From Streptococcus sp. DD12 (GTDB taxonomy: Bacteria; Bacillota; Bacilli; Lactobacillales; Streptococcaceae): a stretch of 64,000 nt of DNA. Both the position numbers and the translations under genes were made by a program. Under the pieces are notes generated by a model. It was not told the DNA's origin and searched no databases. It saw nothing but the letters and a program-made list of their open reading frames with translations. Of this stretch, positions 3,335 to 40,404 are shown piece after piece. How positions within the stretch are numbered: the stretch's first letter is position 1; every line of letters begins with the position of its first letter. The DNA is taken from positions 1 to 64,000 of the forward strand of contig NZ_KQ969497.1 of the NCBI RefSeq assembly GCF_001578885.1. The letters are read 5' to 3'.

Positions 3335-4957
3335 ATGGTATTAGACAAAACAAAAGTGATTTATCAGATTTACCCGAAGTCCTATAAGGATACGACGGGA
3401 AATGGTGTTGGCGATTTTCAAGGGATTATTGAAAAGATTCCTTATCTGGCGGAATTGGGGATTGACATGATTTGGTTAAATCCATTTTACCCAAGTCCTC
3501 AGCGAGATAATGGCTATGATATTTCAGACTACACAGCAGTAAATCCTCTCTTTGGGGATATGGCAGACTTTGAAAAGATGGTAGCTGTTGGTAAGGCTTA
3601 TCACATTGATTTTATGTTAGATATGGTTCTCAATCATTGTTCTACTGAGCATGAGTGGTTCCAGAAGGCTCTAGCAGGTGACAAGTATTATCAAGATTTC
3701 TTCTTTATTCAGGAGCAACCAACCGACTGGCAGTCTAAGTTTGGTGGCAGTGCTTGGGCACCTTTTGGCGATACAGGGAAATATTATCTTCATCTTTTCG
3801 ACATAACTCAGGCGGATTTGGATTGGCGCAATCCAAATGTTCGTAAAGAATTATTTAAAGTGGTTAATTTCTGGCGAGAAAAAGGTGTTAAAGGCTTTCG
3901 GTTTGATGTGATTAATCTCATCGGAAAGGACCCAGTATTAGTGGATTGTGCCGAAGATGAGGGCAAACCAGCTTACACTGATAAGCCGATTGTACATGAT
4001 TATTTGCACATGATGAATGAAGCAACTTTTGGTGAAGACGATAGCTTTATTACTGTAGGGGAAATGTCTTCTACCACTATTGATAACTGTGTCTTGTATT
4101 CAGCACCTGAGCGACATGAATTATCAATGGCCTTTAATTTCCATCATTTGAAGGTGGATTATGCGGATGGGCAAAAATGGACCCTTCATCCTTTTGATTT
4201 TGAAGCCTTAAAGCGTCTTTTCCATACCTGGGGACGTGAAATGAGCGACCGCGGAGGATGGTCAGCCCTATTCTGGAATAATCACGACCAACCACGTGCC
4301 CTCAATCGCTTTGTTGATGTTAAGAATTTCCGTCAAGAAGGAGCGACCATGTTGGCGGCCAGCATCCATTTGTCCCGTGGGACACCCTATATTTATATGG
4401 GAGAAGAGATTGGTATGCTAGATCCCGACTACGATACGATAGCGGATTATGTCGATGTTGAATCACTGAATGCTTTTGAGATGTTAAAAGGGGAAGGCAA
4501 ATCAGAGGAAGAAGCGTTTCGAATTATTCAAGCCAAATCTCGAGATAACTCACGGACTCCCATGCAATGGGATAGTAGTTTAAATGCAGGTTTTTCAACA
4601 GGCACACCTTGGCTAAAACCAGGAAAAACTTATCCTGAGATTAATGTCGAGCGAGAAAAAGATGGGCCAATCTTCCAATTTTATCAAACATTAATTCAGT
4701 TAAGGAAATCGCATCCTATTATTTCAGAAGGGACTTATCGGCCAGTATTGGAAGACCACCAGCAGGTTTACGCTTTTGAACGCCTTTACAAGGACGAGAA
4801 ATTGCTGGTTCTTAATAACTTTTATGATCAGACAGTTGAATTAGACCTACCAGAAGGCTACCAAGAGGGAGAAGTTTTCTTAACCAATCAAGAGCTAGCT
4901 AAGTGGGATAAAAAACTTCTATTGAAACCTTATCAGACCTTGGCGATAAAAGCTTAA
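3335..4957 (+). CDS. treC: alpha,alpha-phosphotrehalase (GH13)
   Basis: Cytoplasmic hydrolase of trehalose-6-phosphate to glucose and glucose-6-phosphate, 540 aa, the usual length for the family. GH13 hallmarks: 'YQIYPKSY' near the N-terminus, nucleophile D191 in 'GFRFDVIN', general acid E243 in 'VGEMSS', and transition-state D318 in 'NNHDQPR'. It sits 64 nt downstream of the trehalose PTS gene, so its substrate is supplied directly by TreP. Some GH13 relatives are oligo-1,6-glucosidases or dextran glucosidases, but the context makes phosphotrehalase the best call. Also named treA in some genomes. Confidence 0.92.
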   Translation: MVLDKTKVIYQIYPKSYKDTTGNGVGDFQGIIEKIPYLAELGIDMIWLNPFYPSPQRDNGYDISDYTAVNPLFGDMADFEKMVAVGKAYHIDFMLDMVLNHCSTEHEWFQKALAGDKYYQDFFFIQEQPTDWQSKFGGSAWAPFGDTGKYYLHLFDITQADLDWRNPNVRKELFKVVNFWREKGVKGFRFDVINLIGKDPVLVDCAEDEGKPAYTDKPIVHDYLHMMNEATFGEDDSFITVGEMSSTTIDNCVLYSAPERHELSMAFNFHHLKVDYADGQKWTLHPFDFEALKRLFHTWGREMSDRGGWSALFWNNHDQPRALNRFVDVKNFRQEGATMLAASIHLSRGTPYIYMGEEIGMLDPDYDTIADYVDVESLNAFEMLKGEGKSEEEAFRIIQAKSRDNSRTPMQWDSSLNAGFSTGTPWLKPGKTYPEINVEREKDGPIFQFYQTLIQLRKSHPIISEGTYRPVLEDHQQVYAFERLYKDEKLLVLNNFYDQTVELDLPEGYQEGEVFLTNQELAKWDKKLLLKPYQTLAIKA

Positions 4958-4967
4958 AACCGAACGG

Positions 4968-4992
4968 ACACTCGAAAAGAGTGTATTTTTTT
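4968..4992 (+). terminator. terminator of the tre operon
   Basis: ACACTC (4968-4973) pairs with GAGTGT (4979-4984) around GAAAA, followed by ATTTTTTT. Confidence 0.85.
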
Positions 4993-5081
4993 GACTTATT
5001 GGTAAAATAAGGAGATTTAACACCAAAAAACGAAGGAAAATGCTATAATTATTTCATAAAACACGAAAAATATTCTTTTTT

Positions 5082-5124
5082 GGTCTAATATGTCCTTTTC
5101 TTCCTTTTAAAGTGACCGTATACT
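5082..5124 (+). promoter_or_regulatory. comX promoter with ComR-box-like element
   Basis: GGTCTAATATGTCC (5082-5095) keeps the right half (TGTCC then T-rich) of the ComR-regulated comX/comS promoter box, whose core is GACA-N4-TGTC, but the left half is degenerate. A T-rich tract follows, then -10 TATACT (5119-5124). This box, T-tract and TATACT layout is the known design of ComR-activated promoters lacking a good -35. A separate extended -10 (TGCTATAAT, 5041-5049) lies upstream and may give basal transcription. Confidence 0.6.
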
Positions 5125-5152
5125 AATGCTATCACTTAAAAGGAGATTTTAT

Positions 5153-5632
5153 ATGGAAAATATTGGGAAATATTATGGAAAAGTTCGTTTGATTGTGTTG
5201 AAGCAACAAAAGCAGTATGGCATCCAGTTATGGGAAAAAGAAGATTGGGAACAAGAGGGCCTTATCTGTCTTTATCAGCTACTGACTAGCCATCCAGAGT
5301 TGCGAGATGATGAAGAAAAGTTGAGGATTTATTTTAAAACAAAATTTTCAAATTACGTTAAAGATCAATTGAGGGCTCAAGGGAGCCTCAAACGACGGAT
5401 TAACAATCAAACTTTTGAAGATGTTCATGAGTTAGAGTATTTAATTGAGGACCCGAGAATGGCTGTGGAAAACTATCTTATCTTTCAGGAATGCTACCAA
5501 TCTTTCAAAAATCAGTTAGAGACTAAGGAAGAGCACGAACAGTTAGAAAAAGTGGTAGCTGGAGAAGTCTTTCGTGGTCGCAAAGCCATGTTACGCCGTA
5601 TGCAGACGTATTTTGAAGATGTTATAAAATAA
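5153..5632 (+). CDS. comX: ComX/SigX competence sigma factor
   Basis: Alternative sigma factor that directs RNA polymerase to late competence genes (DNA uptake and recombination), 159 aa, typical of streptococcal ComX. The region 'QLWEKEDWEQEGLICLYQLL' and 'YFKTKFSNYVKDQLR' resembles sigma region 2, followed by 'QGSLKRRIN'; the C-terminus has an HTH-like basic end. The ATG at 5153 is preceded by AAGGAG; an upstream in-frame ATG at 5126 lacks one and overlaps the promoter. It lies between the trehalose operon and a ComR-like gene, just upstream of pcsB. Sigma activity depends on a peptide-responsive activator; see the next gene. Confidence 0.88.
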   Translation: MENIGKYYGKVRLIVLKQQKQYGIQLWEKEDWEQEGLICLYQLLTSHPELRDDEEKLRIYFKTKFSNYVKDQLRAQGSLKRRINNQTFEDVHELEYLIEDPRMAVENYLIFQECYQSFKNQLETKEEHEQLEKVVAGEVFRGRKAMLRRMQTYFEDVIK

Positions 5633-5660
5633 TCTCTCCCCTAGCAATGAGGAGAAATTT

Positions 5661-6590
5661 ATGTTGGGAACGTTGGGAAATCGGATTAAAACACTACGAA
5701 AGGAAAAAAAGTTAAGCCGAGAGGCAATTTGTGAAGATGGTGAAGTGCTTTCTCCGAAGCAACTCTATCGCATTGAGGCAAATATTTCAATGCCCAGTGT
5801 GGAGAAAGTCGTCTTTTTGGCCAAACAGTTAGATGTTTCGGTGAGTGAACTCTTTGATGAGAAGAAAGAGTTACCTCAAGAATATCTTTCATTAAAGTAT
5901 GATATTTTAAACACCCAAGTCTATCGGCATCCGGATTTAATGACTCAGGTCTTGAAACAGATATCAGATGTTCATGAGCGGTTCTATGCTGACTTACCTC
6001 AAGAGGAGGCCTATATCTTTGGTCTCCTCGAAAAAATGCTACGTGCCTATAACTTGGAGGAAGACCAGATGCCTATTACCGAGATAAAAGAGCATCTGCG
6101 ACCCTTGTTGAATCATTTGTATTTTGATTTAAATACACTCATTATGATTCGGTATGTTCTTAATCGTGAAATCAGTTATGATGAAAAATATAAGAAAAGT
6201 TTGTTTGGTGCGTCCTATATTGCAATGGTTCAAGAGGAACTGGTCAATCTGACAACAACAGTGAGACGCGAAGACTGGTTTATCTGTCGAGACAATTTAA
6301 TCACCGCCTTGACCTTAAGTTTAAATCATGCAGACCATGAGAAGTGTTTTCTTCTATTAAAAGTATTGAAAGAAAATATGGCGCGTTTTCAAGATGTCCA
6401 GAAAAAAATGATTGTGATGATGCTGGAATGGAAAATATTTCTGTTAAACAATCAGCTGGACGAAGCACAGGAAACCTATGATAAGACAAAGGCATTCGTG
6501 CAAATTATTGGTGACAAACATGTTCTAATGAAAATTATGGAAGAATGGGAAAGTGATTTCAAAGATTTCCAAAAGAAAAAGGAAATCTAA
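5661..6590 (+). CDS. ComR-like RRNPP/Rgg-family regulator
   Basis: Predicted peptide-responsive transcription regulator, 309 aa. An N-terminal XRE helix-turn-helix (residues 1-65, 'LGNRIKTLRKEKKLSREAI' ... 'SPKQLYRIEANISMPSVEKV') is followed by an alpha-helical TPR-like region (about 75-305) of the kind that binds short pheromones. From memory, the pattern LS-x-EA-x-C, QL-x-RIE, FLAK-x-L-x-VS, LP-x-x-Y-x-x-LKY and LEWK resembles streptococcal ComR more than generic Rgg; no alignment was run. It starts 28 nt after comX with its own RBS (GAGGAGAAATTT), so it is probably co-transcribed. No comS-like ORF with a WW-type XIP motif is visible around it. It could be ComR itself, a ComR paralogue, or a regulator of another pathway. 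Confidence 0.72.
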   Translation: MLGTLGNRIKTLRKEKKLSREAICEDGEVLSPKQLYRIEANISMPSVEKVVFLAKQLDVSVSELFDEKKELPQEYLSLKYDILNTQVYRHPDLMTQVLKQISDVHERFYADLPQEEAYIFGLLEKMLRAYNLEEDQMPITEIKEHLRPLLNHLYFDLNTLIMIRYVLNREISYDEKYKKSLFGASYIAMVQEELVNLTTTVRREDWFICRDNLITALTLSLNHADHEKCFLLLKVLKENMARFQDVQKKMIVMMLEWKIFLLNNQLDEAQETYDKTKAFVQIIGDKHVLMKIMEEWESDFKDFQKKKEI

Positions 6591-6611
6591 TGGAAGCATA
6601 AAAAGCACGTT

Positions 6612-6642
6612 TGTAACATTTTTGTAATGGAAATGATATGAT
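6612..6642 (+). promoter_or_regulatory. WalR (VicR) box and pcsB promoter
   Basis: TGTAAC-N5-TGTAAT (6612-6628) is a perfect match to the WalR/VicR consensus TGTWAH-N5-TGTWAH. A -10 TATGAT (6637-6642) follows without a good -35; the box occupies the -35 region, as expected for activation by the essential WalRK system, whose best-known streptococcal target is pcsB. Confidence 0.82.
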
Positions 6643-6689
6643 AAATATGGTAGCATAGTAATGTCTTATCAAAAAGGAGTTTTTATTAG

Positions 6690-7943
6690 ATGAAAAAAAG
6701 CATTTTATCTGCAGTCTTGGTAAGTGGTGTTACCCTTACTTCTGCACAAACTTTGACTCATGTAAACGCTGATGAATATGATAATCAGATTGCCGCTAAG
6801 GATAGCGTCATCAGCGACCTTACTGCTCAACAAACTGATGCCCAAAAACAAGTAACCAATATTCAAGCACAAGTTGATTCATTGACAACTCAACAAAATG
6901 AATTGGCTGCGCAAAACGATCAATTGCAACAAGAGTCACAAGAACTCTCAACTGAGATTCAAACACTCTCTAACAAGATCGTTGCTCGTAACGAAACATT
7001 GAAGAAGCAAGCGCGTGCGGCTCAAAAAGCAAGCACACTCTCAAGCTACCTCGATGCCATTGCTAACTCAAAATCAATCTCAGATGCCATCAGCCGTGTT
7101 GCTGCTGTCCACGAGGTTGTTTCTACCAACCAAGCGACTATCAAGCAACAAGAATCTGATAAGTCAGCCTTGGAAGAAAAACAAGTAGCTAACCAAGAAG
7201 CTATCAATACAGTTGCAGCAAACCAAGTGCAATTGCAAGAAACTTCAGCTGCCTTGACAACTCAACAAGCTGAATTGCAAGCAGCACAATTGGCATTGCA
7301 AGCACAATTGGCGACAGCTCAAGAAGAAAAAGCATCTCTTCAATCACAACAAGCAGCCGCTCAAGCAGCCGCTCAAGCAGCCGCTGAACAAGCAGCTGCG
7401 CAAAAACAAGCGCAAGAAGCAGCTGCTCAAGCCGCTCAAGAATCAGTTCAAACAGCTCAAGCTGCTGTAGAAACTGGTACTGCTACAACGGATACTACAA
7501 CAGATACTTCTGCTGATGCGGCAACTAGCCAACCAGCAGCGTCAACAGCTTCTGCAACACCTGCTGCAGCAACAGCAACAGCTGTGTCAGCAAGCGTGAA
7601 TACAGCTGGTAACACCTATCCAGTTGGACAATGTACTTGGGGTGTTAAATCTCTCGTATCATGGGCTGGAAACGGCTGGGGAAATGCTAACCAATGGGGA
7701 GCTTCTGCAACAGCTGCTGGTCACTCAATTTCATCTACACCTTCAGTAGGTGCTATCGCAGTTTGGCCAAATGATGGTGGAGGATACGGACACGTGGCTT
7801 ATGTGGTCGCAGTGAACGGAACAAACAGCATTCAAGTTATGGAATCAAACTATGCGGGTAACATGTCTATCGGTAACTACCGTGGTTCATTTGACCCAAC
7901 AGCTTCAACTTGGGGTGGATCAGTATACTACATCTTACCTTAA
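6690..7943 (+). CDS. pcsB: PcsB, secreted CHAP-domain peptidoglycan hydrolase for cell division
   Basis: Septal peptidoglycan-splitting protein recruited by FtsEX, 417 aa. A signal peptide (cleavage near 'HVNA|DEYDN', about residue 27) precedes a long coiled coil rich in Gln/Ala (about 30-260), a low-complexity Ala/Thr linker (about 260-310), and a C-terminal CHAP domain (about 312-417) with the catalytic Cys in 'VGQCTWG' and His in 'GHVAYV'. Near repeats of CAAGCAGCCGCT around 7350-7385 encode an Ala/Gln run. It is regulated by the WalR box upstream and ended by a strong terminator, so it is probably monocistronic. Confidence 0.95.
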   Translation: MKKSILSAVLVSGVTLTSAQTLTHVNADEYDNQIAAKDSVISDLTAQQTDAQKQVTNIQAQVDSLTTQQNELAAQNDQLQQESQELSTEIQTLSNKIVARNETLKKQARAAQKASTLSSYLDAIANSKSISDAISRVAAVHEVVSTNQATIKQQESDKSALEEKQVANQEAINTVAANQVQLQETSAALTTQQAELQAAQLALQAQLATAQEEKASLQSQQAAAQAAAQAAAEQAAAQKQAQEAAAQAAQESVQTAQAAVETGTATTDTTTDTSADAATSQPAASTASATPAAATATAVSASVNTAGNTYPVGQCTWGVKSLVSWAGNGWGNANQWGASATAAGHSISSTPSVGAIAVWPNDGGGYGHVAYVVAVNGTNSIQVMESNYAGNMSIGNYRGSFDPTASTWGGSVYYILP

Positions 7944-8060: not shown

Positions 8061-9029
8061 ATGTCTTACGCCAATTTAAAACTTTTTGCCTTATCATCTA
8101 ATCAGGAATTAGCGGCTAAGGTTGCAGACACGATGGGGATTTCTTTAGGAAAATCAACTGTGCGTGAATTCTCAGATGGTGAGATTCAAGTTAATATTGA
8201 AGAATCTATTCGTGGCTGTCATGTCTTCATTTTGCAGTCGACTAGTGCGCCAGTCAATGATAATTTAATGGAAATTTTGATTATGGTGGATGCCTTACGT
8301 CGAGCTAGTGCAGCGACCATTAATGTCGTGATGCCATATTATGGCTACGCGCGTCAAGACCGTAAAGCACGTTCGCGTGAACCTATCACTTCCAAGCTGG
8401 TTGCCAACATGTTGTCTGTTGCTGGGGTTGACCGTTTGTTGACAGTAGATTTACACGCTGCTCAAATCCAAGGTTTCTTTGATATTCCAGTAGACCACCT
8501 CATGGGGGCGCCTCTCATTGCAGATTACTTTATCCGTAAAGGGATGACTGGAGATGACTATGTCGTTGTCAGTCCTGACCACGGCGGTGTAACCCGAGCG
8601 CGTAAGTTAGCGGAATACTTGAAAACGTCAATTGCCATCATTGACAAACGTCGTAGTGTCGATAAGATGAATACCAGTGAAGTGATGCATATTATCGGGG
8701 ACGTTTCAGGCAAAACCTGTATTTTGATTGACGATATGATTGACACAGCTGGAACAATCTGTCACGCAGCGGACGCATTAGCAGAAAGTGGCGCAACAGC
8801 AGTTTATGCTTCTTGTACGCATCCTGTCTTGTCTGGTCCTGCCTTGGACAATATTGAAAAGTCAGCTATTGAAAAACTAGTGGTTCTGGATACAATTTAT
8901 TTACCTGAGGAACACTTGATCGATAAGATTGAACAAATCACAATTGCTGATTTGATTGCGGAAGCCATTATCCGTATTCATGAAAATCGGCCCTTGTCTC
9001 CGCTGTTTACGATTCAAACCCAAAAATAA
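8061..9029 (+). CDS. prs: ribose-phosphate pyrophosphokinase (PRPP synthetase)
   Basis: Makes PRPP from ribose-5-phosphate and ATP, the entry substrate for the purine genes downstream; 322 aa. Visible motifs: '[18 protein letters not shown]' (the flexible/metal-binding region, about residue 130) and the PRPP-binding loop '[14 protein letters not shown]' (about 217-230). The ATG at 8061 follows GGAGGG-TATC; an in-frame ATG four codons upstream overlaps the RBS. Streptococci often carry two Prs paralogues; which one this is cannot be told here. Confidence 0.95.
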
Positions 9030-9147: not shown

Positions 9148-10329
9148 ATGGCATTAGTAGATCGCTTTAATAAGCATTTGGATGATATTCAGGTATCTTT
9201 AATTCGGCAATTTGATCAATCTATTTCAGATATTCCAGGGATTCTCAAGTTGACATTAGGGGAACCTGATTTTAATACGCCTGAACATGTCAAAGAGGCA
9301 GCTAAATCAGCGATAGATGCCAATCAGTCCCATTATACCGGTATGGCTGGTCTTTTACCCTTGCGTCAGGCGGCTGCAGACTTTGTGAAATCTAAGTATG
9401 GCTTGGCTTATGCCCCAGAAGATGAAATTTTGGTAACGATAGGCGCTACTGAAGCTCTATCAGCTACCTTAACAGCTATTTTGGAACCAGGGGATTCGGT
9501 TCTCTTACCAGCGCCTGCTTATCCAGGGTATGAGCCAATCGCAAACCTCGTGGGAGCTGAAATCGTTGAAATTGATACAACGTCTAATCAATTTGTCTTG
9601 ACTCCTGAGATGCTAGAAGAGGCGATTAAAAAACAAGGGTCACGTCTCAAAGCCGTCTTGTTGAACTACCCAGCCAATCCGACTGGTGTGACTTATAGTC
9701 GAGAACAAATGCAAGCTCTTGCAGAGGTCCTCAAGCGTTATGAAATTTTTGTTGTCAGTGATGAAGTGTATTCGGAATTGAACTATGATGCCGAAGGTCA
9801 CGTGTCTATTGCAGAGTTTATTCCCGAGCAAACTATTGTCATCAATGGTCTCTCCAAGTCTCATGCCATGACGGGTTGGCGTTTGGGCTTTATCTTTGCA
9901 CCACGTGAGTTGACAGCACAATTGATTAAGAGCCACCAATACTTAGTGACGGCGGCCTCCACGATTTCTCAATTTGCTGGGATCGATGCCTTGACAGTTG
10001 GTAAAGATGATACCCTTGCGATGAAACAAGAATACCTGAAACGGCGTGATGTGATTATCGAGAAAATGTCAGCACTAGGATTTGACATTATCAAACCAAA
10101 TGGTGCCTTTTACATTTTCGCTAAAATTCCAGAGGGCTATGAGCAGGATTCCTTTAAATTCTGTCAAGAATTTGCACGGCAACAGGCAGTTGCTATCATT
10201 CCTGGTGTGGCTTTTGGACCTTATGGAGAAGGCTACGTGCGTTTGTCTTATGCAGCTAGCATGGAAACCATTCAGGAAGCTTTGAGCCGTCTGGAGGAAT
10301 TTATGCATGCCACTACAAGCAGTCACTAG
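9148..10329 (+). CDS. araT: class I/II pyridoxal-phosphate aminotransferase (aromatic amino acid type)
   Basis: Fold-type I PLP transaminase, 393 aa, moving amino groups between aromatic (and possibly branched) amino acids and 2-oxo acids. PLP lysine is K237 in 'NGLSKSHAMTGWRLGF'; 'NYPANPTG' and 'SDEVYSELNY' are the usual cofactor-contact motifs. The ATG at 9148 follows GGAGGG-TGT. A promoter with TATAAT lies upstream (-35 TTTGTT, 17 nt). Its end overlaps recO by 23 nt, the conserved streptococcal order. Substrate specificity rests on synteny rather than residues. Confidence 0.85.
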   Translation: MALVDRFNKHLDDIQVSLIRQFDQSISDIPGILKLTLGEPDFNTPEHVKEAAKSAIDANQSHYTGMAGLLPLRQAAADFVKSKYGLAYAPEDEILVTIGATEALSATLTAILEPGDSVLLPAPAYPGYEPIANLVGAEIVEIDTTSNQFVLTPEMLEEAIKKQGSRLKAVLLNYPANPTGVTYSREQMQALAEVLKRYEIFVVSDEVYSELNYDAEGHVSIAEFIPEQTIVINGLSKSHAMTGWRLGFIFAPRELTAQLIKSHQYLVTAASTISQFAGIDALTVGKDDTLAMKQEYLKRRDVIIEKMSALGFDIIKPNGAFYIFAKIPEGYEQDSFKFCQEFARQQAVAIIPGVAFGPYGEGYVRLSYAASMETIQEALSRLEEFMHATTSSH

Positions 10330-21087: not shown

Positions 21088-22635
21088 ATGACTAAACGTG
21101 CACTGATTAGTGTTTCAGACAAAGCGGGCATTGTTGAATTTGCTCAAGAACTAAAAAAACTCGGTTGGGACATTATCTCGACAGGTGGGACCAAGGTTGC
21201 CCTTGACAAGGCTGGGGTTGACACCATTGCCATCGATGATGTGACTGGTTTTCCAGAAATGATGGACGGTCGTGTCAAGACTCTCCACCCAAAGATCCAC
21301 GGTGGTCTCCTTGCTCGTCGTGACCTTGATAGCCACCTAGAGGCTGCCAAGGACAATAATATCGAACTTATCGACCTTGTTGTGGTTAACCTCTACCCCT
21401 TCAAGGAAACCATCCTTAAACTAGACGTGACCTATGCGGATGCGGTTGAAAATATCGACATTGGTGGTCCATCCATGCTTCGTTCTGCTGCGAAGAACCA
21501 CGCTAGCGTGACAGTTGTAGTTGACCCAGCAGACTATGCTGTTGTTCTTGACGAATTGGCAGCCAACGGCGAAACGACTTACGAAACCCGTCAACGCTTG
21601 GCAGCAAAAGTATACCGTCACACAGCTTCATACGACGCTTTGATTGCGGAATACTTCACCGCACAGGTGGGGGAAAGCAAGCCTGAAAAACTCACCTTGA
21701 CCTATGACCTCAAGCAAGCCATGCGTTATGGGGAAAACCCTCAACAGGATGCGGACTTCTACCAAAAAGGCTTGCCAACGGACTACTCTATCGCGGCTGC
21801 CAAGCAGCTGAATGGTAAAGAATTGTCCTTCAACAACATCCGTGACGCTGATGCGGCTATCCGGATCATCCGTGACTTCAAGGAACGCCCAACCGTTGTG
21901 GCTCTCAAACACATGAACCCATGTGGAATTGGTCAAGCCGACGACATCGAAACGGCTTGGGACTATGCTTATGAAGCTGACCCAGTCTCCATCTTTGGTG
22001 GAATTGTCGTTCTCAACCGTGAAGTGGACGCTGCGACAGCCCAAAAAATGCACGGGGTCTTCCTTGAAATCATCATCGCACCAAGCTATACAGATGAAGC
22101 GCTTGAAATCTTGACAACCAAGAAGAAAAACTTGCGGATTCTTGCCTTGCCATTTGACGCGCAAGAGGCCAGTGAAGTGGAAGCAGAATACACGGGTGTT
22201 GTTGGTGGACTTCTGGTTCAAAACCAAGACGTGGTCAAAGAAAGTCCAGCGGACTGGCAAGTGGTGACCAAACGTCAACCAACTGAGACAGAAGCGACAG
22301 CCCTTGAGTTTGCTTGGAAAGCTATTAAGTACGTCAAGTCAAACGGGATCATTGTGACCAACGACCACATGACCCTTGGTGTCGGACCAGGTCAAACCAA
22401 TCGTGTGGCTTCAGTCCGCATTGCCATTGACCAAGCCAAAGACCGTTTGGACGGGGCTGTCCTTGCTTCCGATGCCTTCTTCCCATTTGCGGATAACGTG
22501 GAAGAAATCGCCAAGGCAGGGATTAAAGCCATCATCCAACCCGGTGGCTCCGTGCGTGACCAAGAGTCTATCGAAGCGGCAGACAAGTATGGCTTGACCA
22601 TGATTTTCACTGGTGTACGCCACTTTAGACATTAA
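21088..22635 (+). CDS. purH: AICAR transformylase / IMP cyclohydrolase
   Basis: Bifunctional last two steps to IMP, 515 aa from the ATG at 21088, the usual family length ('[18 protein letters not shown]'). The N-terminal MGS-like cyclohydrolase domain (about 1-195) includes '[14 protein letters not shown]'; the transformylase domain contains '[14 protein letters not shown]' (about 212) and 'LKHMNPCGI' (about 275). The RBS is weak. An in-frame GTG at 21028 would add 20 very hydrophobic residues, probably not the real start; see findings. Confidence 0.95.
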
Positions 22636-22636
22636 G

Positions 22637-22686
22637 AAAAAAGTCAATTTCTGGCAGTCTGAGGACTGGCTGAGATTGGCTTTTTT
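22637..22686 (+). terminator. terminator of purCLFMNH
   Basis: A long imperfect stem: the arm AAAAAGTCAATTTC...GCAGTC pairs with GACTG...GAGATTGGCTTTTTT around TGAG. It ends in six Ts. Confidence 0.88.
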
Positions 22687-22713
22687 AGCGAAAAAAATAA
22701 AAAATAATTTTCA

Positions 22714-22766
22714 TGTCATAAAACGTTACATTTATTGTTGACAAGGCTATTTAATCACGTTATACT
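22714..22766 (+). promoter_or_regulatory. GlnR box and glnRA promoter
   Basis: TGTCA-N7-TTACA (22714-22730) matches the GlnR/TnrA consensus TGTNA-N7-TNACA exactly. Directly downstream are a consensus -35 TTGACA (22738-22743) and -10 TATACT (22761-22766) with 17-nt spacing. This implies glutamine-dependent repression by the GlnR encoded next door. Confidence 0.88.
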
Positions 22767-22786
22767 AGGGGAGAAAGGAGCTTGCC

Positions 22787-23149
22787 ATGAAGGAAAAGGA
22801 ACTACGTCGATCGCTTGCAGTCTTTACGATTGGCTCAGTTATGAAGTTGACAGATTTGACAGCGCGTCAAATTCGTTACTATGAAGAGCAAGGTTTGGTT
22901 TTTCCAGAACGAACCCAAGGAAATCGGCGTCTGTATTCTTTGAATGATATGGATCGGCTCCTAGAAATCAAGGACTTTATTGCTGATGGCAAAAAGATGT
23001 CAGCTATTCGGGCGATTTATGCCAGTCGGAAACAGAAAGAACACAATATTTCTGATGAAGAGCTAAGACATCGTTTACGTCAGGAGATGAGCCAACAAGC
23101 TGGCTTTACCAGTCCTTCCGCAACCCACTTTGGTAATCTACGCTTCTAA
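22787..23149 (+). CDS. glnR: GlnR, MerR-family nitrogen regulator
   Basis: Repressor of glutamine and glutamate metabolism genes, 120 aa. MerR-type HTH in the first 75 residues ('TARQIRYYEEQGLVFPERTQ', 'NRRLYSLNDMDRLLEIKDF'), short C-terminal tail rich in charged residues that in this family receives the glutamine synthetase signal. RBS AAAGGAG. Co-transcribed with glnA from a GlnR-controlled promoter, so it should autoregulate. Confidence 0.95.
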   Translation: MKEKELRRSLAVFTIGSVMKLTDLTARQIRYYEEQGLVFPERTQGNRRLYSLNDMDRLLEIKDFIADGKKMSAIRAIYASRKQKEHNISDEELRHRLRQEMSQQAGFTSPSATHFGNLRF

Positions 23150-23191
23150 TTTCCAATTCGTAGATAGAGATTTTAAGGAGATCTTAACATT

Positions 23192-24538
23192 ATGGCTATC
23201 ACAGCAGAAGACATTCGTCGCGAAGTGAAAGAAAAAAATGTCACATTCTTACGTTTGATGTTCTCAGACATCGCAGGTTCCCTCAAAAACGTTGAAATTC
23301 CTGCGACAGATGAGCAGTTGGATAAGGTTTTGAGCAACAAAGCCATGTTCGATGGGTCTTCTATCGAAGGGTTTGTCCGGATTAATGAATCTGACATGTA
23401 CCTCTACCCTGACCTTGACACTTGGATTGTCTTCCCTTGGGGGGATGAAAATGGCGCAGTAGCTGGTCTGATTTGTGATATCTATACTGCCGAAGGGGAG
23501 CCTTTTGCAGGTGACCCACGCGGCAACCTGAAACGCGCTTTGAAACATATGGAAGAGGTTGGCTTTAAATCCTTTAACCTAGGACCTGAGCCAGAATTCT
23601 TCCTCTTCAAGCTCGATGAAGATGGTGAAACAACATTGGAAGTCAACGACCGTGGTGGCTACTTTGATTTGGCACCGACCGATTTGGCAGACAATACCCG
23701 TCGTGAAATTGTGAATGTCTTGACTCAGTTAGGCTTTGAAGTGGAAGCATCCCACCACGAGGTTGCGGTTGGACAACATGAGATTGACTTCAAATATGCG
23801 GATGTCTTAAAAGCATGTGATAACATCCAAATCTTTAAACTCGTTGTTAAGACCATTGCACGCAAACATAACTTGTATGCGACCTTCATGGCAAAACCAA
23901 AATTTGGTATCAATGGGTCTGGAATGCACTGTAACATGTCACTTTTTGACAAAGATGGCAACAACGCCTTCTTTGATCCAGAAGACCCACGTGGTATGCA
24001 ACTGTCACAAAATGCTTACTACTTCTTGGGTGGTCTTATGGAGCATGCCTACAACTACACGGCTATCATGAACCCAACTGTAAACTCTTACAAACGTTTG
24101 GTCCCTGGTTATGAAGCACCTGTCTACATTGCATGGGCTGGTCGTAACCGTTCACCATTGATTCGCGTACCTGCTTCACGTGGAATGGGGACACGTTTGG
24201 AATTGCGGTCTGTTGACCCAACAGCGAACCCTTACCTGGCTTTAGCGGTTCTTTTGGAAGCGGGTCTTGACGGAATTGAAAATAAAATCGAAGCGCCAGA
24301 ACCTGTGGAATCTAATATTTACGTTCTTAATGAAGCAGAACGTAAAGAGTACGGCATCAAAGACCTGCCATCAACACTGCACAATGCGGTTAAAGGGCTT
24401 TTGGAAGACGATGTTGTTAAGGAAGCCTTGGGTGACCACATCTTGACGAACTTCGTTGAAGCTAAGCGCATTGAGTGGGCATCTTATGCTGCCTTCGTTT
24501 CACAATGGGAAATTGATAACTACCTGCACCTATATTAA
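23192..24538 (+). CDS. glnA: glutamine synthetase type I
   Basis: ATP-dependent synthesis of glutamine from glutamate and ammonia, dodecameric, cytoplasmic; 448 aa, the Firmicutes GSI-alpha length. Motifs: '[10 protein letters not shown]' (about 53-62), 'GPEPEFFLF' (about 130), '[16 protein letters not shown]' (ATP-binding region, about 233). The adenylylation-loop Tyr motif of GSI-beta is not evident, consistent with control by feedback and GlnR. Located 42 nt after glnR. Confidence 0.97.
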
Positions 24539-24545
24539 GCAAAGC

Positions 24546-24568
24546 AAGGGGCCTAAGGGCCCTTTTGC
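24546..24568 (+). terminator. probable terminator of glnRA
   Basis: AAGGGGCC pairs with GGCCCTTTT around TAAG. The stem may extend as AGCAA/TTGCT, which would consume the U-run, so strength is uncertain. Confidence 0.6.
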
Positions 24569-24638
24569 TATGAGTCAGTCGCTTGTGGGGATTTTCAAAC
24601 GAGAAGCGCCTAGCGCGAGTAATATTTCAAATTACCCC

Positions 24639-24667
24639 TTGTCAATCCCATAAGACTGTGGTAAACT
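24639..24667 (+). promoter_or_regulatory. rpmB promoter
   Basis: -35 TTGTCA (24639-24644), 17-nt spacer ending in TGG, -10 TAAACT (24662-24667). RBS AGAGGAGG follows. Confidence 0.75.
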
Positions 24668-24712
24668 AGTACAGAATGTGGCGTATGCCCGAAAACTAAG
24701 AGGAGGTATTCC

Positions 24713-24900
24713 ATGGCTAAAGTATGTTATTTTACTGGTCGTAAGACAAAAGCAGCTAATAACCGTTCACACGCAATGAACAAAACAAAACGTACCGTTA
24801 AACCAAATCTTCAAAAAGTTACGATTCTTGAAGACGGAAAACGTAAAAAGTTTGGGTTTCAGCTCGTGCCCTTAAATCAGGTAAAGTTGAGCGTGTCTAA
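24713..24900 (+). pseudogene. rpmB: ribosomal protein L28, reading frame broken by a 1-nt deletion
   Basis: The N-terminal part '[18 protein letters not shown]' through 'ILEDGKRKK' is L28. After CGT-AAAAA-G (A-run 24845-24849) the frame is lost; adding one A restores '[18 protein letters not shown]' and a stop at 24898-24900, giving the expected 62 aa. The open frame as written instead runs on to 79 aa with an unrelated tail. L28 is normally needed for growth, so a sequencing or assembly error is the simplest explanation. rpsS in this window shows the same kind of loss. Confidence 0.9.
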
Positions 24901-24907
24901 CCTAGAT

Positions 24908-24944
24908 AAAAAAGAGTTTGGAAGTTATTCCGAACTCTTTTTTT
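24908..24944 (+). terminator. terminator of rpmB
   Basis: AAAAAAGAGTT pairs with AACTCTTTTTTT, with TGGAA/TTCCG inside. The rpmB out-of-frame extension runs into it, further evidence that this extension is not real. Confidence 0.88.
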
Positions 24945-25047
24945 GTGCCTAAACACGATCATCTTCTGACTGAAAAATGGCTTTAAATTGTCAAGCCTAA
25001 TAAGATTATGATAAAATGGAGTGATTAAAGAATTTGAGGTTAGGAAT

Positions 25048-25419
25048 ATGACAGTAAAAATTAATACACAAGACGGTCAAATTGAACTGTCTGATGATGT
25101 CATTGCTACAGTTGTTGGGGGTGCTGCAACACAGATTTTTGGTGTTGTCGGTATGGCTAGCAAAAGCGCTGTAAAAGATAATATTCAAGCTCTCTTGCGT
25201 CGTGAAAATTACGCCAAGGGTGTCGTTGTGCGCGCCAGTGAAGAAGACGGTATCAGCGTTGATGTGTATACGGTGATGAGTTATGGCGTGAAGATTTCAG
25301 AAGTTTCAAAGAATATCCAAGAACGTGTGAAATTTAATCTAGAAAACCAATTGGGCATTGCAGCAGATACGGTCAATGTCTACGTACAAAATATTCGAGT
25401 GATGGGAGAAAAAGCGTGA
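25048..25419 (+). CDS. Asp23/Gls24-family envelope-stress protein
   Basis: 123-aa member of the Asp23 family, usually placed just before fakA. Begins 'MTVKINTQDGQIELSDDV' and holds the family 'GVVGMA' and 'VMSYGVKISEV' segments. The ATG at 25048 follows GAGGTTAGGAAT; an in-frame GTG at 25021 lacks a good RBS. It overlaps fakA by GTGA, implying coupled translation and perhaps a link to fatty acid or envelope physiology (inference). Confidence 0.85.
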   Translation: MTVKINTQDGQIELSDDVIATVVGGAATQIFGVVGMASKSAVKDNIQALLRRENYAKGVVVRASEEDGISVDVYTVMSYGVKISEVSKNIQERVKFNLENQLGIAADTVNVYVQNIRVMGEKA

Positions 25420-27083
25420 CAACAATTACTACAAGTCTCTTGCAGGAAATGGTTCAAGCGGCCGCAACACGCTTGAGCAGCCAGGCAGAGTATGTTAACT
25501 CGCTAAATGTCTTCCCTGTTCCAGATGGAGACACAGGGACTAACATGAGCATGACCATGGATAATGGGGCAAAGGAAGTTTCTCGCCAAGATGCTGCTAC
25601 AGTTGGCGAAGTTGGACAAATCTTGTCCAAAGGGCTTTTAATGGGTGCCCGTGGGAACTCTGGAGTCATCACCTCTCAGCTCTTTCGTGGTTTTGGACAA
25701 AGCATCAAAGAAAAAACCGAGCTAGATGGTAAAGATTTGGCTCAGGCCTTCCAAGCAGGTGTAGAAGTTGCCTATAAAGCGGTGATGAAACCCGTAGAAG
25801 GGACCATTCTGACAGTTTCACGGGGGGCTGCAACAGCGGCTATCCATAAGTCTGAAACGAGTGATGATGCTGTTGCTGTTATGACGGCGGCCCTTGACGG
25901 TGCCAAAGCCGCCTTAGCTAAGACACCAGAAATGTTGCCGGTTTTAAAAGAGGTCGGCGTCGTGGACTCTGGTGGCCAAGGTTTGGTGTATATCTACGAA
26001 GGCTTCTTATCCGCTTTGACTGGCGAATACATTGCTTCAGATGATTTTCAAGCGACTCCCGCAACGATGACGGAAATGATTAATGCCGAACACCATAAGG
26101 CGGTCGCTGGACACGTGGCAACTGAAGATATCACCTTTGGTTATTGTACGGAAATTATGGTGTCTTTGGGACAAGGGCCTACAGTTGTTCAGGACTTTGA
26201 CCACGACACTTTCCGCAACTACCTCAATAATCTGGGGGACTCGCTTTTAGTCGTCAATGATGATGAAATCGTCAAAGTCCACGTCCATACAGAAGATCCA
26301 GGCTTGGTTCTTCAAGAGGGACTCAAATACGGGTCTTTGGTCAAGGTCAAGGTAGATAACATGCGCAACCAGCATGAAGCTCAAGTTGAAAAAGAAGAAC
26401 GCCTTGAGCCTCAGACGCAAGCGCCAAAACCTTATGGTGTTATTGCAGTAGTCGCTGGTCAGGGAATGGCTGATATTTTTGAGTCACAGGGTGTTGATTA
26501 CGTGATTTCAGGTGGGCAAACCATGAATCCGTCAACCGAGGATGTGATTCGTGCCATCAATGCTGTCAATGCAGAGCAAGTTATCATTCTTCCAAATAAC
26601 AAGAATATCTTTATGGCAGCCCAAGCCGCAGCAGAAGCCTCTGATATTCCAGCTGGAGTTGTGCCGACTAAAACCTTGCCACAGGGCTTGACCAGTCTTT
26701 TAGCCTTCAACCCAGAGGTAGATGTTCAAACAAACGTTGACGCGATGACTGCAGCACTAGATGACGTGGCTTCTGGCAGTGTCACACTGGCAGTTCGTGA
26801 TACGACAATTGACGGTTTAGCTATCCACGAAGGTGACTTTTTAGGGATGGTTGATGGGAAAATTGTCATTTCAGCGACTGATTTGGAAGCCGTTCTCTTG
26901 ACCAGCTTTGAGCGCATGATCACAGAAGACAGTGAGATTGCTGCTATCTATGTTGGTGAAGAAGGTGATCAGGCCTTTGCGAAAGCCATTGCACAAAAAT
27001 TGGAAGAAGCGCATGAAGATTTAGAAGTTGAGATTCATTTGGGTGGTCAGCCAGTCTATCCTTATCTCATGAGCGTTGAATAA
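25416..27083 (+). CDS. fakA: fatty acid kinase catalytic subunit FakA (DAK-like)
   Basis: Phosphorylates exogenous fatty acids bound to FakB to feed PlsX/PlsY, 555 aa. An N-terminal DhaL-like ATP domain (about 1-200) carries the metal-binding 'PVPDGDTGTNMSMTM' (residues about 32-46) and 'MGARGNSGVITSQ'; a middle domain and a C-terminal domain follow. GTG start inside the stop of the Asp23 gene. Older annotations call it a dihydroxyacetone kinase; the domain order favours FakA. plsX lies in the same window. Confidence 0.92.
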   Translation: MTTITTSLLQEMVQAAATRLSSQAEYVNSLNVFPVPDGDTGTNMSMTMDNGAKEVSRQDAATVGEVGQILSKGLLMGARGNSGVITSQLFRGFGQSIKEKTELDGKDLAQAFQAGVEVAYKAVMKPVEGTILTVSRGAATAAIHKSETSDDAVAVMTAALDGAKAALAKTPEMLPVLKEVGVVDSGGQGLVYIYEGFLSALTGEYIASDDFQATPATMTEMINAEHHKAVAGHVATEDITFGYCTEIMVSLGQGPTVVQDFDHDTFRNYLNNLGDSLLVVNDDEIVKVHVHTEDPGLVLQEGLKYGSLVKVKVDNMRNQHEAQVEKEERLEPQTQAPKPYGVIAVVAGQGMADIFESQGVDYVISGGQTMNPSTEDVIRAINAVNAEQVIILPNNKNIFMAAQAAAEASDIPAGVVPTKTLPQGLTSLLAFNPEVDVQTNVDAMTAALDDVASGSVTLAVRDTTIDGLAIHEGDFLGMVDGKIVISATDLEAVLLTSFERMITEDSEIAAIYVGEEGDQAFAKAIAQKLEEAHEDLEVEIHLGGQPVYPYLMSVE

Positions 27084-36810: not shown

Positions 36811-38106
36811 ATGATCAACCGTTACTCTCGCCCAGAAATGGCGAACATTTGGACTGAGGAAAACAAATACCGTGCTTGGCTTGAGGTGGAAATCTTGGCT
36901 GACGAAGCATGGGCTGAGTTGGGAGAAATCCCTAAGGAAGATGTGGCTTTGATTCGTGAAAAGGCGGATTTTGACATCGACAGGATTTTAGAAATCGAGC
37001 AGCAAACGCGTCACGATGTGGTGGCTTTCACGCGTGCGGTTTCTGAGACACTTGGTGAAGAACGTAAGTGGGTTCACTATGGTTTGACTTCTACTGACGT
37101 GGTGGACACTGCCTATGGTTACCTCTACAAACAAGCCAACGACATCATCCGCAAAGACCTTGAAAACTTCCTCAACATCATTGCGGACAAAGCGCGTGAA
37201 CACAAGTTCACGATCATGATGGGGCGTACCCACGGTGTGCACGCTGAGCCGACTACTTTTGGTTTGAAATTAGCGACTTGGTACAGCGAAATGAAGCGCA
37301 ACATCGAGCGTTTCGAGCATGCAGCTGCTGGTGTGGAAGCTGGTAAGATTTCTGGTGCGGTTGGGAACTTTGCCAACATCCCACCATTTGTGGAAAAATA
37401 CGTCTGCGACAAACTGGGTATCCGTGCTCAAGAAATCTCGACACAGGTCCTTCCTCGTGACCTTCACGCGGAGTACTTTGCAGTTTTGGCGAGCATCGCA
37501 ACTTCTATCGAGCGGATGGCAACTGAAATTCGTGGTCTGCAAAAATCAGAACAACGTGAAGTGGAAGAGTTCTTTGCCAAAGGGCAAAAAGGGTCGTCAG
37601 CCATGCCTCACAAACGCAACCCTATCGGTTCTGAAAACATGACAGGTCTCGCGCGTGTTATCCGTGGTCACATGGTAACAGCCTACGAAAACGTCGCTCT
37701 TTGGCACGAGCGTGATATTTCCCATTCATCAGCTGAGCGGATTATCACACCAGATACGACCATCTTGATCGACTACATGCTCAACCGCTTTGGCAATATC
37801 GTCAAGAACTTGACCGTCTTCCCAGAAAACATGATCCGCAACATGAACTCTACCTTTGGTTTGATCTTTAGCCAACGTGCCATGCTTACTTTGATTGAAA
37901 AAGGCATGACCCGTGAGCAAGCTTACGACCTTGTTCAACCAAAGACTGCCCAATCTTGGGACAACCAAGTGGACTTCAAACCCTTGCTTGAAGCAGATCC
38001 AGAAGTGACTTCACGCCTCACGCAAGAAGAAATCGACGAAATCTTCAACCCAGTTTACTACACCAAACGTGTCGACGAAATCTTCGAACGCATCGGTTTG
38101 GACTAA
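36811..38106 (+). CDS. purB: adenylosuccinate lyase
   Basis: Cleaves SAICAR to AICAR and adenylosuccinate to AMP, 431 aa. Fumarase/aspartase superfamily signature '[17 protein letters not shown]' (about 262-278), 'TSTDVVDTA' and '[14 protein letters not shown]'. RBS TAGGAGA overlaps the stop of the HEPN-type gene, so purB may now depend on transcription through that gene. Ends at a terminator. Confidence 0.97.
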
Positions 38107-38325: not shown

Positions 38326-39318
38326 ATGAATAAAGCAGATTGGTTAGACTACTTTGAGACAGTCAACGGTCGCAAACCATCAGAGGAAGAGTTGCAAGCA
38401 GCCTTGGCTGCTGGGGAGTTTGAGGAAGAGTCTGACAGCACAGATGCTGTTACAGACGCCTCTACCAGCAGTTCAGAAAGTGTTTCTGAGTCATTGTCTG
38501 AAAAAGCAGGCAGTGAGGTAGCTGCAGAAGTGCTGGTAACGGAAGCTCAGGTGCAAGAAGGTTTGGTGCAGTCTCAAACCAATGCTCAGACAGCAGGTGT
38601 GGTGCCACCGACCTATGTCTTGCCACAAGAAGGGAAAAAGTTCTCTACAAAGAAACTCTTGCTGATTATCGCTGCGGTTCTAGCGGTTCTTGTCCTCACT
38701 CTAGGGGCTGGGACAACCTTTTACTATATTTCAGGTAACGTGGATGGGTCTTACCACAATAAAACCCTCGAAACAAAGCTGAAAAAATCTTGGAAAGAAA
38801 GCCAATCAACCAGCGCTGAGGACGTGCTATCTGATGCCAATGTGAACTTGGATGTTAAAAAGGATAAAGCAGTGGCCACCCTTACCATGAAGATGGATTA
38901 TTCAAGCTACTATAAGAGCCTTAAAAAGACCTATGATTGGATGAGTGATAGCTCTCTTTACAGTAGTTATTACAGCTATTTCATGCCATCATACCTCAAG
39001 TCAGAGTCAGCTTTTGATAGTTACATGGATGACAATATGAAAGAGACTCTTGAAGACGCAGAGGCGACTTATGATGCGAAAACCAATACCATTACCTATG
39101 TTATTTTCAAGGGAAATGTTGATCGCTGGTCACGGGCAATTAAGGTGACATGGGTCAACAAAACCATCTATAAAGATTCTTCTAGCAACGGCGAAAGTGT
39201 GAAAGATGCCTTTGAAAAATCTCTGAAATTCAAAAAAGGTAGTTACGTTAGCTACAAAAAAGAAGCGAACAAACTGATCTTAAACAACAAGTCAGACAGT
39301 GCTTTCGTCAAGCGTTAA
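38326..39318 (+). CDS. membrane-anchored protein with N-terminal 'WLDYFExVNGRKP' motif (copy 1)
   Basis: 330 aa, family not recognised. A short N-terminal cytoplasmic module ('ADWLDYFETVNGRKPSEEE', residues 4-22), a Ser/Glu/Ala-rich linker (35-105), one transmembrane helix (about 109-132, 'LLLIIAAVLAVLVLTLGAG'), and an extracellular domain of about 195 residues beginning 'GNVDGSYHNKTL' and rich in Tyr/Ser/Lys. Orientation (N-in, C-out) is inferred from the basic residues before the helix. Followed after 21 nt by a paralogue; a second pair occurs at 55564-57206. RBS AGGAGAGG. Confidence 0.8.
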   Translation: MNKADWLDYFETVNGRKPSEEELQAALAAGEFEEESDSTDAVTDASTSSSESVSESLSEKAGSEVAAEVLVTEAQVQEGLVQSQTNAQTAGVVPPTYVLPQEGKKFSTKKLLLIIAAVLAVLVLTLGAGTTFYYISGNVDGSYHNKTLETKLKKSWKESQSTSAEDVLSDANVNLDVKKDKAVATLTMKMDYSSYYKSLKKTYDWMSDSSLYSSYYSYFMPSYLKSESAFDSYMDDNMKETLEDAEATYDAKTNTITYVIFKGNVDRWSRAIKVTWVNKTIYKDSSSNGESVKDAFEKSLKFKKGSYVSYKKEANKLILNNKSDSAFVKR

Positions 39319-39339: not shown

Positions 39340-40404
39340 ATGATGTCACGAGAGGAATGGCTGGACTACTTTGAAACAGTCAACGGCCGTAAGCCATCGG
39401 AAGAAGAAATCAAAGCGGCTCAAGCGGTGGGAGAGTTTTCTGTAGCAACCGATCAGCCTGTAGCTCAAGAAACTTCTGATGCATCCGCTAACATCATCCC
39501 ATCAGAACCCGTACAGGCGGATGGACCGATTGAAAAACGGCCACCTGTTTCCCCGGTAGGGGGCGTCCCTGTGGCTGGCCAGCCCTTCCAACAAGTGCCT
39601 GCTAACCAAGGTCCCTTTGGGCAACAACAGGCCCCAGTTGGCCCTTATCAAACAGGTGTTCCAACTTACGTCATGCCGTCAGCTAAGCGCAAGGGGAAAA
39701 TCGGCTTGATTATCGGTTTAGTGGCTGGTGTGCTTGTATTGCTCGGTCTGGGCGTCGGTGGTGTCTTTGGTTTTCGGTATATGACGGGCTGGGTACCAGA
39801 TGGGACTTTTACAAGTACAGCCATTACAAAAGATATCGAAGATGCCCAAGATGAGGTCGATGACTACCCCGAAGTTCAAGATGTTATCTCTAAACCGAAA
39901 CTGCAGCTGACGGTTGATGACAAAGATGTTGCTGTCTCTTTGACCTATCAGTTTGACTGGGATACCTATTGGAAAAATTACCTGTCTATCCTAAAGCAAG
40001 AGTTAAAGAGTAGCTATGGTGACTATGTCTCAGATACGACGATTGATAGTTATGTCGAATCAAACTACGCTTCCAGCGAATCCACTTATAAGTCTAAATA
40101 CCTGACAGAACTGAAAACACAAATTCAAGATGCTGGTGGGATGTTTGACAAGTCAACGGGTGAGGTTAGCTTCTTGCTCGTGCGTGGAAAGCTTGATTAT
40201 CTTAGCCATAAAATGACCGTAACCTCTGTCAATACAGATGCGCTGCGTACAAAAGTCGGCAAGGACTATACGACAGATTATTTAGCTTCGGTTTATGTCA
40301 ATAAACTCTCTACTTATTTTGCGAATCTCTCCGAAGGAAAAGAGGTTGATTATAGCTATAACGACGGTGACCTCGAAATCGGCAATGTCACTTATAGTCG
40401 TTAA
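39340..40404 (+). CDS. membrane-anchored protein with N-terminal 'WLDYFExVNGRKP' motif (copy 2)
   Basis: 354 aa. Same layout as copy 1: motif 'EEWLDYFETVNGRKPSEEE' at the N-terminus, a Pro/Gln/Gly-rich linker, one helix ('IGLIIGLVAGVLVLLGLGVGG', about 119-140), and an ectodomain starting 'GWVPDGTFTSTAIT'. The first 18 residues of the motif are nearly identical to copy 1, the ectodomains are only distantly alike. RBS GGAGGGGG; start could be either of two adjacent ATGs (39340 or 39343). Ends at a terminator. Confidence 0.8.
   Translation: MMSREEWLDYFETVNGRKPSEEEIKAAQAVGEFSVATDQPVAQETSDASANIIPSEPVQADGPIEKRPPVSPVGGVPVAGQPFQQVPANQGPFGQQQAPVGPYQTGVPTYVMPSAKRKGKIGLIIGLVAGVLVLLGLGVGGVFGFRYMTGWVPDGTFTSTAITKDIEDAQDEVDDYPEVQDVISKPKLQLTVDDKDVAVSLTYQFDWDTYWKNYLSILKQELKSSYGDYVSDTTIDSYVESNYASSESTYKSKYLTELKTQIQDAGGMFDKSTGEVSFLLVRGKLDYLSHKMTVTSVNTDALRTKVGKDYTTDYLASVYVNKLSTYFANLSEGKEVDYSYNDGDLEIGNVTYSR

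Follow-up and report, generated by a model that had tools for sequence, protein, structure and literature searches.

In ComRS streptococci a pheromone loop is thought to set the timing of DNA uptake, and comS, preceded by a ComR box, usually adjoins comR. The locus described here raises the question of what kind of competence circuit results when a ComR-like gene directly follows comX (sigX), behind a promoter in which half of the ComR box has changed. The window, as we call the whole stretch of 64,000 nucleotides analysed, comes from Streptococcus sp. DD12, whose genome of 1.68 Mb is assembled in 11 contigs and 99.3% complete. The host is an unusual, deeply branching streptococcus, and the PcsB proteins of the closest relatives compared share just 62-65% with its own. 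In the window, comX occupies positions 5153-5632 of the + strand (159 aa; the sole copy found in the genome). Its stop codon spans 5630-5632 and, after 28 nt, the regulator gene that we call comR* starts with the ATG at 5661 and runs as an intact ORF of 309 aa to 6590 on the same strand, as had been claimed in the original prediction. The likely start of comX is the ATG at 5153, which has the Shine-Dalgarno sequence AAAAGGAG; the ATG at 5126 lies 2 nt beyond the end of the -10 element and is thus probably upstream of the transcript start. We assign the name comX from its promoter and its similarity to other streptococcal ORFs. Comparable ORFs were found in 244 of the 284 genomes of the genus, with up to 45% identity among the matches listed; in NCBIfam the protein matched sigma70-ECF alone, below the cut-off, and Pfam gave no match.

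The surroundings of both genes are consistent with a single transcription unit. A terminator-like hairpin with a T-run (ACACTCGAAAAGAGTGT ATTTTTTT; 4968-4984, + strand) lies 3′ of treC in a segment (4960-5000) that folds with -8.6 kcal/mol (z -1.9), and probably sets comX apart from the trehalose operon. As no terminator-like site was found on the + strand between comX and comR*, the two genes would be co-transcribed as a two-gene operon. A hairpin in the gap between them was considered as a translation switch and rejected, the fold being ordinary (z -1.46 over 38 nt and +0.43 over 101 nt). Downstream of comR*, pcsB (6690-7943, + strand) is predicted to have its own promoter, with a promoter-like site at 6613-6642 and a motif that we take to be WalR-like (TGTAACATTTTTGTAAT; 6612-6628, + strand). 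In relatives this gene is preceded by mreD: a frame of at least 100 codons ends no more than 250 nt before pcsB in 27 of 29 relative loci (of the other two loci, one is too short and one has no such frame), and the ten of those 27 frames that were tested all matched MreD in Pfam, nine of them above the cut-off. Here the neighbour of pcsB is comX-comR* instead of mreD, which places the operon at a rearranged spot. The mreD usually found before pcsB is absent from positions 6591-6690.

The regulator belongs to the ComR family, with an XRE helix-turn-helix and a ComR_TPR domain, and is not an SHP-type Rgg. Its product matches ComR_TPR (PF18710) at 1.4e-67 and HTH_3 at 1.9e-9 in Pfam, and its best PDB sequence matches are ComR of S. 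suis (5fd4, 1.3e-29) and of S. thermophilus (5jub, 4.1e-26), with no entry named Rgg among the 22 found up to an E value of 1. An AlphaFold model of ComR* (pLDDT 90.8, from a 36-row alignment) led to the same assignment: Foldseek placed ComR first, at 1e-12, with Rgg2 following from 7.5e-7, and the VIA Z was 21-24 for full-length ComR versus about 16-17 for Rgg and PlcR. Thus, the RRNPP protein called ComR-like from its translation was rightly so called, and the clustering with non-competence Rgg regulators that would have spoken against it was seen neither in sequence nor in fold. The domain arrangement of the model was also considered as a sign of a freed helix-turn-helix, a notion that was dropped when the control, the ComR of S. 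entericus, proved no nearer the apo form.

Within this family ComR* is exceptionally diverged. A first scan of the named genomes with the single ComR* protein found nothing, and PADLOC gave weak HTH matches at most; at 1e-30 or better, 102 of the 284 genomes of the genus have a match, its own included, and the best non-self identity among the matches listed is 33%. In a tree of 61 ComR rows, from which rows more than 75% alike had been removed and in which two genes of contig C4 were retained, ComR* has the longest end branch (2.8 changes per column; median 0.45) and falls outside every supported group. Constraining it to the 26-row clade of pyogenic, bovis and mutans type gains 1.4 log-likelihood units (p-AU 0.58); the loss is 3.6 when it is joined to the suis clade (p-AU 0.31) and 12.4 when it is placed among salivarius-type proteins (p-AU 0.167), and the test rejects none of the three placements. 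The neighbouring comX is fast as well: in a tree of its 29 best-matching loci its end branch is 1.21, with two further rows at 1.05 and 1.21. For PcsB of the same genome, the corresponding tree of 29 best-matching loci gives 0.36, within the range of relatives (three others at 0.35-0.42). Rates of this kind would suit a comR* that is a drifting relic or has been repurposed, with comX driven by other means, such as the ComR relatives encoded on C4 or basal read-through, and the simultaneous change of the strictly conserved R35 and of the left half-site, both described below, would suit it too. The 309-codon frame is nevertheless intact despite such divergence. Simulated neutral decay at 0.3 changes per base introduced about 10 stops and left the frame stop-free in 1 of 500 runs, from which we infer that the gene is under selection; on balance we regard the relic or repurposed gene as quite improbable.

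The promoter of comX carries a degenerate ComR box (GGTCTAATATGTCC; 5082-5095, + strand) whose right half TGTC is intact and whose left half reads GTCT, not GACA, so that this half differs from the canonical one in the bases numbered 5 and 3. A pyrimidine- and T-rich tract leads to the -10 element TATACT (5119-5124, + strand), at the canonical spacing of 24 nt after TGTC. Among 32 comX loci examined, 23 have TGTC at 23-25 nt before TANNNT, and in all of these the left half is GACA, with a spacing of 24 in 21 promoters and of 25 in two, although the extraction script preferred a GACA-bearing site when several candidates were present. The nine loci lacking that arrangement are L054-L056, L058, L059, L061, L140, L151 and L159. 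ComRS membership was judged by a comX promoter with GACA-N4-TGTC at a distance of 24-25 nt from the -10; in the window the right half, the spacing and the -10 conform and the left half does not, so that the box is indeed half-degenerate, as first described. A weight matrix built from the 21 unique ComR-type comX promoters scores it at 20.4, rank 1 of the 127,880 positions in the window (runner-up 13.5), so that the box is real and no product of chance; all training promoters score higher (29.4-45.6), which marks it as weakened. A variant comX box alone is not new: the comX box of S. suis is stated to deviate in its most distal inverted repeat (PMC4072589, accessible part).

Upstream of the ComR box stands an extended -10 candidate (TGCTATAAT; 5041-5049, + strand), which may be a weak constitutive promoter for basal expression of comX-comR*; sites of this form number six in the window versus 1.7 expected, and six were reached in 1 of 100 shuffles. 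With such a promoter in place, ComR* could conceivably be a brake that sits on the half-site without activating and holds the comX driven from the extended -10 low, in a negative loop, a role with which changed DNA-contact and ligand residues would also agree. A repressor, however, would not need the exact 24-nt distance between box and -10 that is kept here as in activated promoters, and we consider a brake very unlikely.

How the receptor would read such a box was judged from key residues, given here in the numbering of S. thermophilus ComR, over a table of 131 other rows (128 ORFs and 3 PDB sequences; ORFs below 230 aa excluded) whose counts run over related species and are not independent; positions 146-151, on which two alignments disagree, were left unused. 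In ComR*, K33 corresponds to R35, V87 to T90, V97 to K100 and Q114 to E117. Of the DNA-contact pair, R39 is retained and R35, an arginine in 131 of 131 other rows, has become K33. Both arginines are strictly conserved among ComR orthologues and contact GACA in S. thermophilus, where R35 reads the G at position 6 and R39 contacts the A at position 5 (PMC5131891, from the portion of the article available). The G6 is kept in both half-sites of the window's box. The original prediction had suggested a co-evolved regulator with changed specificity, an idea that finds no support in this form: the reader of the changed A5 is still R39, and the changed R35 reads a G6 that is kept, so that a simple one-to-one compensation is not seen. 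The changes in box and receptor look more like weakening than compensation. Moreover, with a box scoring below every canonical promoter and R35 changed, the binding of ComR* may be weak or absent.

A second set of changes affects the pheromone pocket. The anchor of the XIP carboxylate, defined as T90 with K or R at position 100, is replaced in ComR* by V87 and V97; at position 100, 114 of the 131 other rows have K or R and none has V. In S. thermophilus ComR, K100 and T90 hold this carboxylate, and the K100A change raises the KD from 10 nM to 1.2 uM, about a 100-fold cost in XIP affinity, and T90A raises it to 0.24 uM, about 24-fold (same portion of PMC5131891). As both carboxylate-holding residues are changed, a canonical XIP response of ComR* is unlikely. 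Using a WW-type peptide within 500 nt as a mechanical test from sequence alone, K or R at position 100 was found in 68 of 69 ORFs with such a peptide versus 43 of 59 without; T90 is absent from 17 of the 69 receptors with a nearby WW peptide, and one receptor with a WW peptide adjoining (L008) has Q at position 100. Activation by a metabolite, which requires T90 and K100 in S. salivarius (PMC12998947, accessible text), is likewise unlikely with both residues altered. The change of E117 to Q was examined as a sign of constitutive activity and discarded, because the E is also missing in 10 of the 69 receptors with WW peptides nearby. In two loci, from relative G238 (L031) and from Streptococcus sp. 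MAG S18M_Sa_22 (L107), a ComR without E117 and E118 lies beside a ComS candidate of 14 aa, MRFITLILLGWWSL.

These changes raise the matter of where the pheromone gene might be. As the original prediction had it, no WW-type comS is nearby: the segments 4940-5160, 5600-5700 and 6560-6700 contain five small ORFs, not one of which fits, and the four small ORFs with W-x(0-2)-W in the whole window are all inside treC and purF. Nor was comS found elsewhere in the window or under a second comX-type box. The usual position of comR is empty as well. Among 78 named ComR-family loci, purB and ruvB both lie within the flanks in 31, with comR between them in 24; the other seven, all from S. suis, have it behind both. 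The purB of the window (36811-38106, + strand) is followed by unrelated ORFs, and the purB-comR-comS-ruvB locus is vacant. Four predicted proteins of the window (38326-39318, 39340-40404, 55564-56424 and 56421-57206) have similar N-terminal segments (e.g. WLDYFETVNGRKPSEEE), and the two of them tested in Pfam, those at 38326 and 39340, gave no match.

A genome-wide search for the 23-nt comX box found no second copy with up to 3 mismatches. With up to 2 mismatches, the 14-mer box has nine other matches (10 in total versus 12 for a reversed control), each of which lies within an open frame of at least 70 codons or where such a frame begins, and GACATNNATGTC occurs at seven genome sites, four at a bacteriocin-like locus on C4 and three within long frames. 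In these box matches and in the small ORFs of the window, the comR-comS pair elsewhere in the genome that could have accounted for comX activation was not found. An ordinary but diverged ComRS system, with comS elsewhere in the genome or in an assembly gap, under a box too changed for the patterns used, and with a ComR* whose reshaped pocket binds an atypical XIP, we weigh as an unlikely alternative. In its favour, the comR* ORF is intact and its TPR fold kept, the assembly is in 11 contigs, so that comS could be missed, the L008 receptor with Q100 still has its WW peptide, a comS is present at the S. entericus locus in which comX and comR are neighbours, and ScuR and SarF of S. salivarius are also without a nearby peptide gene (PMC6703854, available portion). 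Against it count the lack of a second comX-type box, the confinement of the seven canonical boxes to C4 or to long frames, and the joint alteration of both carboxylate-holding residues, with a V100 seen in no other row.

The same genome encodes two tandem salivarius-type ComR relatives on contig C4 (C4:21495-23594), which are 25-27% identical to ComR*. The one tested matches the ComR of S. vestibularis at 5e-78, and both cluster with S. thermophilus ComR (support 100) and keep R35, T90 and K100. We recognised no peptide gene in their vicinity, and four promoters of the form GTGACATGAATGTCAC-T-tract, with both half-sites present, precede short, partly bacteriocin-like ORFs at that locus. In these respects they look like ScuR and SarF, whose targets in S. 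salivarius are bacteriocin genes rather than comX, likewise with no peptide gene nearby (PMC6703854, as far as its available text goes). Their canonical residues and their placement with S. thermophilus ComR would qualify them as drivers of comX if comR* were a relic; their own boxes, however, have both halves. In S. salivarius, ScuR bound the comX palindrome once a single mismatch had been mended, and SarF did not (PMC6703854, same portion), so that the much-changed comX box of the window is an unlikely target of the C4 relatives. Within the C4 segment (21461-25472, locus L005), runs of N lie over the HTH part of both ComR-relative genes. A leader, GCATCCCTCTTATTTTAAGAGAAATAGAAGCTACCTTATGGC, is repeated with slight variants before three short genes of L005 (about 8180-8245, 8958-9020 and 9326-9400, minus strand) and is possibly a structured RNA or a leader.

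The DNA-uptake genes tested, which such a circuit would control (comEA, comEC and comGA-GC), are intact as judged from their sequences: ComEC, ComGA, ComGB and ComGC score above their NCBIfam cut-offs, the frames of comEC and comGA are open, and ComEA passes the cut-off of its helix-hairpin-helix model; against the full-length comE model it reaches 133.5 bits, below the required 152.35. Sequences resembling sigma-X boxes precede comEA (CTTTTTCGAATAAAGG) and comGA (CCTTTTCGAATAAGG), and radC has TTTTTGCGAATAA. The pattern TTNNTNCGAATA was tried as a sigma-X search and abandoned, with 16 genome matches versus 24 for a reversed control, that is, rarer than the control; the comEA and comGA boxes have the form TTTTCGAATA, which this pattern misses. 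In 4958-6690 no TTCGAATA was found with up to 1 mismatch, so that comR* would be without a sigma-X-box feedback of the S. mutans kind.

Altogether, a positive loop, which the original prediction had already offered as a possibility, is the natural reading of the arrangement. We give an even chance to the proposal that the comX-comR* operon is autoactivated through its diverged ComR, with a loop closed through the receptor and not the pheromone. The operon would be driven from the degenerate ComR-box promoter. Basal transcription, starting at this weak promoter or at the extended -10 candidate (5041), would supply a little ComR*, which would bind PcomX chiefly by the intact right half-site and recruit RNA polymerase to a promoter in which no -35 can be recognised, raising sigma-X and ComR* alike, so that amplification would pass through the receptor and not through comS. 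ComR* is most likely deaf to canonical XIP and would work by its own abundance or with another ligand. Co-transcription, binding to PcomX, activation and the lack of an XIP response are the steps that we infer in this scheme. A receptor-closed loop fits the observation that comX of S. thermophilus is limited by the abundance of ComR, whose gene is not part of the feedback loop there (PMC4686606, accessible part).

A more far-reaching version, possible but doubtful in our view, is that the pheromone has been shed: ComR* would not bind XIP, through the autocatalytic operon each single cell would decide privately, according to dose, on its entry into competence, and receptors of the pheromone type would serve the bacteriocin locus only. 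If true, the locus would be a natural case of a receptor that is placed in the loop and has lost its pheromone contacts, showing how a lineage can give up quorum sensing and remain competent, and a natural test of whether the abundance of ComR alone suffices to open the competence window.

Compared with the ComRS systems of S. suis and of the mutans, bovis and pyogenic groups, in which a WW-type XIP is used and a ComR box precedes both comS and comX, the window shares a ComR-family gene, a ComR-box comX promoter with the TGTCC right half and the 24-nt spacing, and uptake genes with sigma-X-like boxes. It differs in that comR follows comX, no comS was found, the purB-ruvB locus is empty, R35, T90 and K/R100 are changed and the left half-site is lost. 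As in the SigX-comR feedback of S. mutans, the output of comR would climb with comX and the loop would act on the receptor, but there a sigma-X box upstream of comR makes the connection (PMC5519730, portion available), and here it would be the gene order. The likeness to ScuR and SarF of S. salivarius lies in a ComR-family receptor with no peptide gene at hand; those proteins control bacteriocin genes, and their counterparts on C4 are distinct from ComR*.

A published comX-comR operon, or a comR beside comX, was not found in the available parts of the open-licence literature. The separation of comR from comX, given as a rule in the original prediction, has an exception in S. entericus DSM 14446 (L108:1-1640), where both genes are side by side in the order comX, 209 nt, comR, WW-type comS and ruvB. 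A search for comX with the diverged protein of the window as query (1e-8, flanks of up to 10 kb) found it in four of the 78 named loci, and in this one of the four it adjoins comR; inspection by eye of the 284 genomes of the genus gave no comX-comR pair within 10 kb among the matches listed, that of the window excepted. In S. entericus, as here, comR lies directly 3′ of comX on the same strand, and the two ComR proteins are 28% identical. The S. entericus locus differs by its 209-nt gap with a TATAAT-like sequence, a WW-type ComS (MFNFASAFSSIRSFFGRFGEDTWWFL) and canonical R35, T90 and R100. Its comS box, read by eye, is also unusual (AGGACTTTTTCGTCCT). S. entericus is therefore a precedent for the linkage of comX and comR and not for the loss of comS, and a linkage with the pheromone retained suggests a possible path in which linkage came first, and the loss of comS and the change of the XIP anchor came after.
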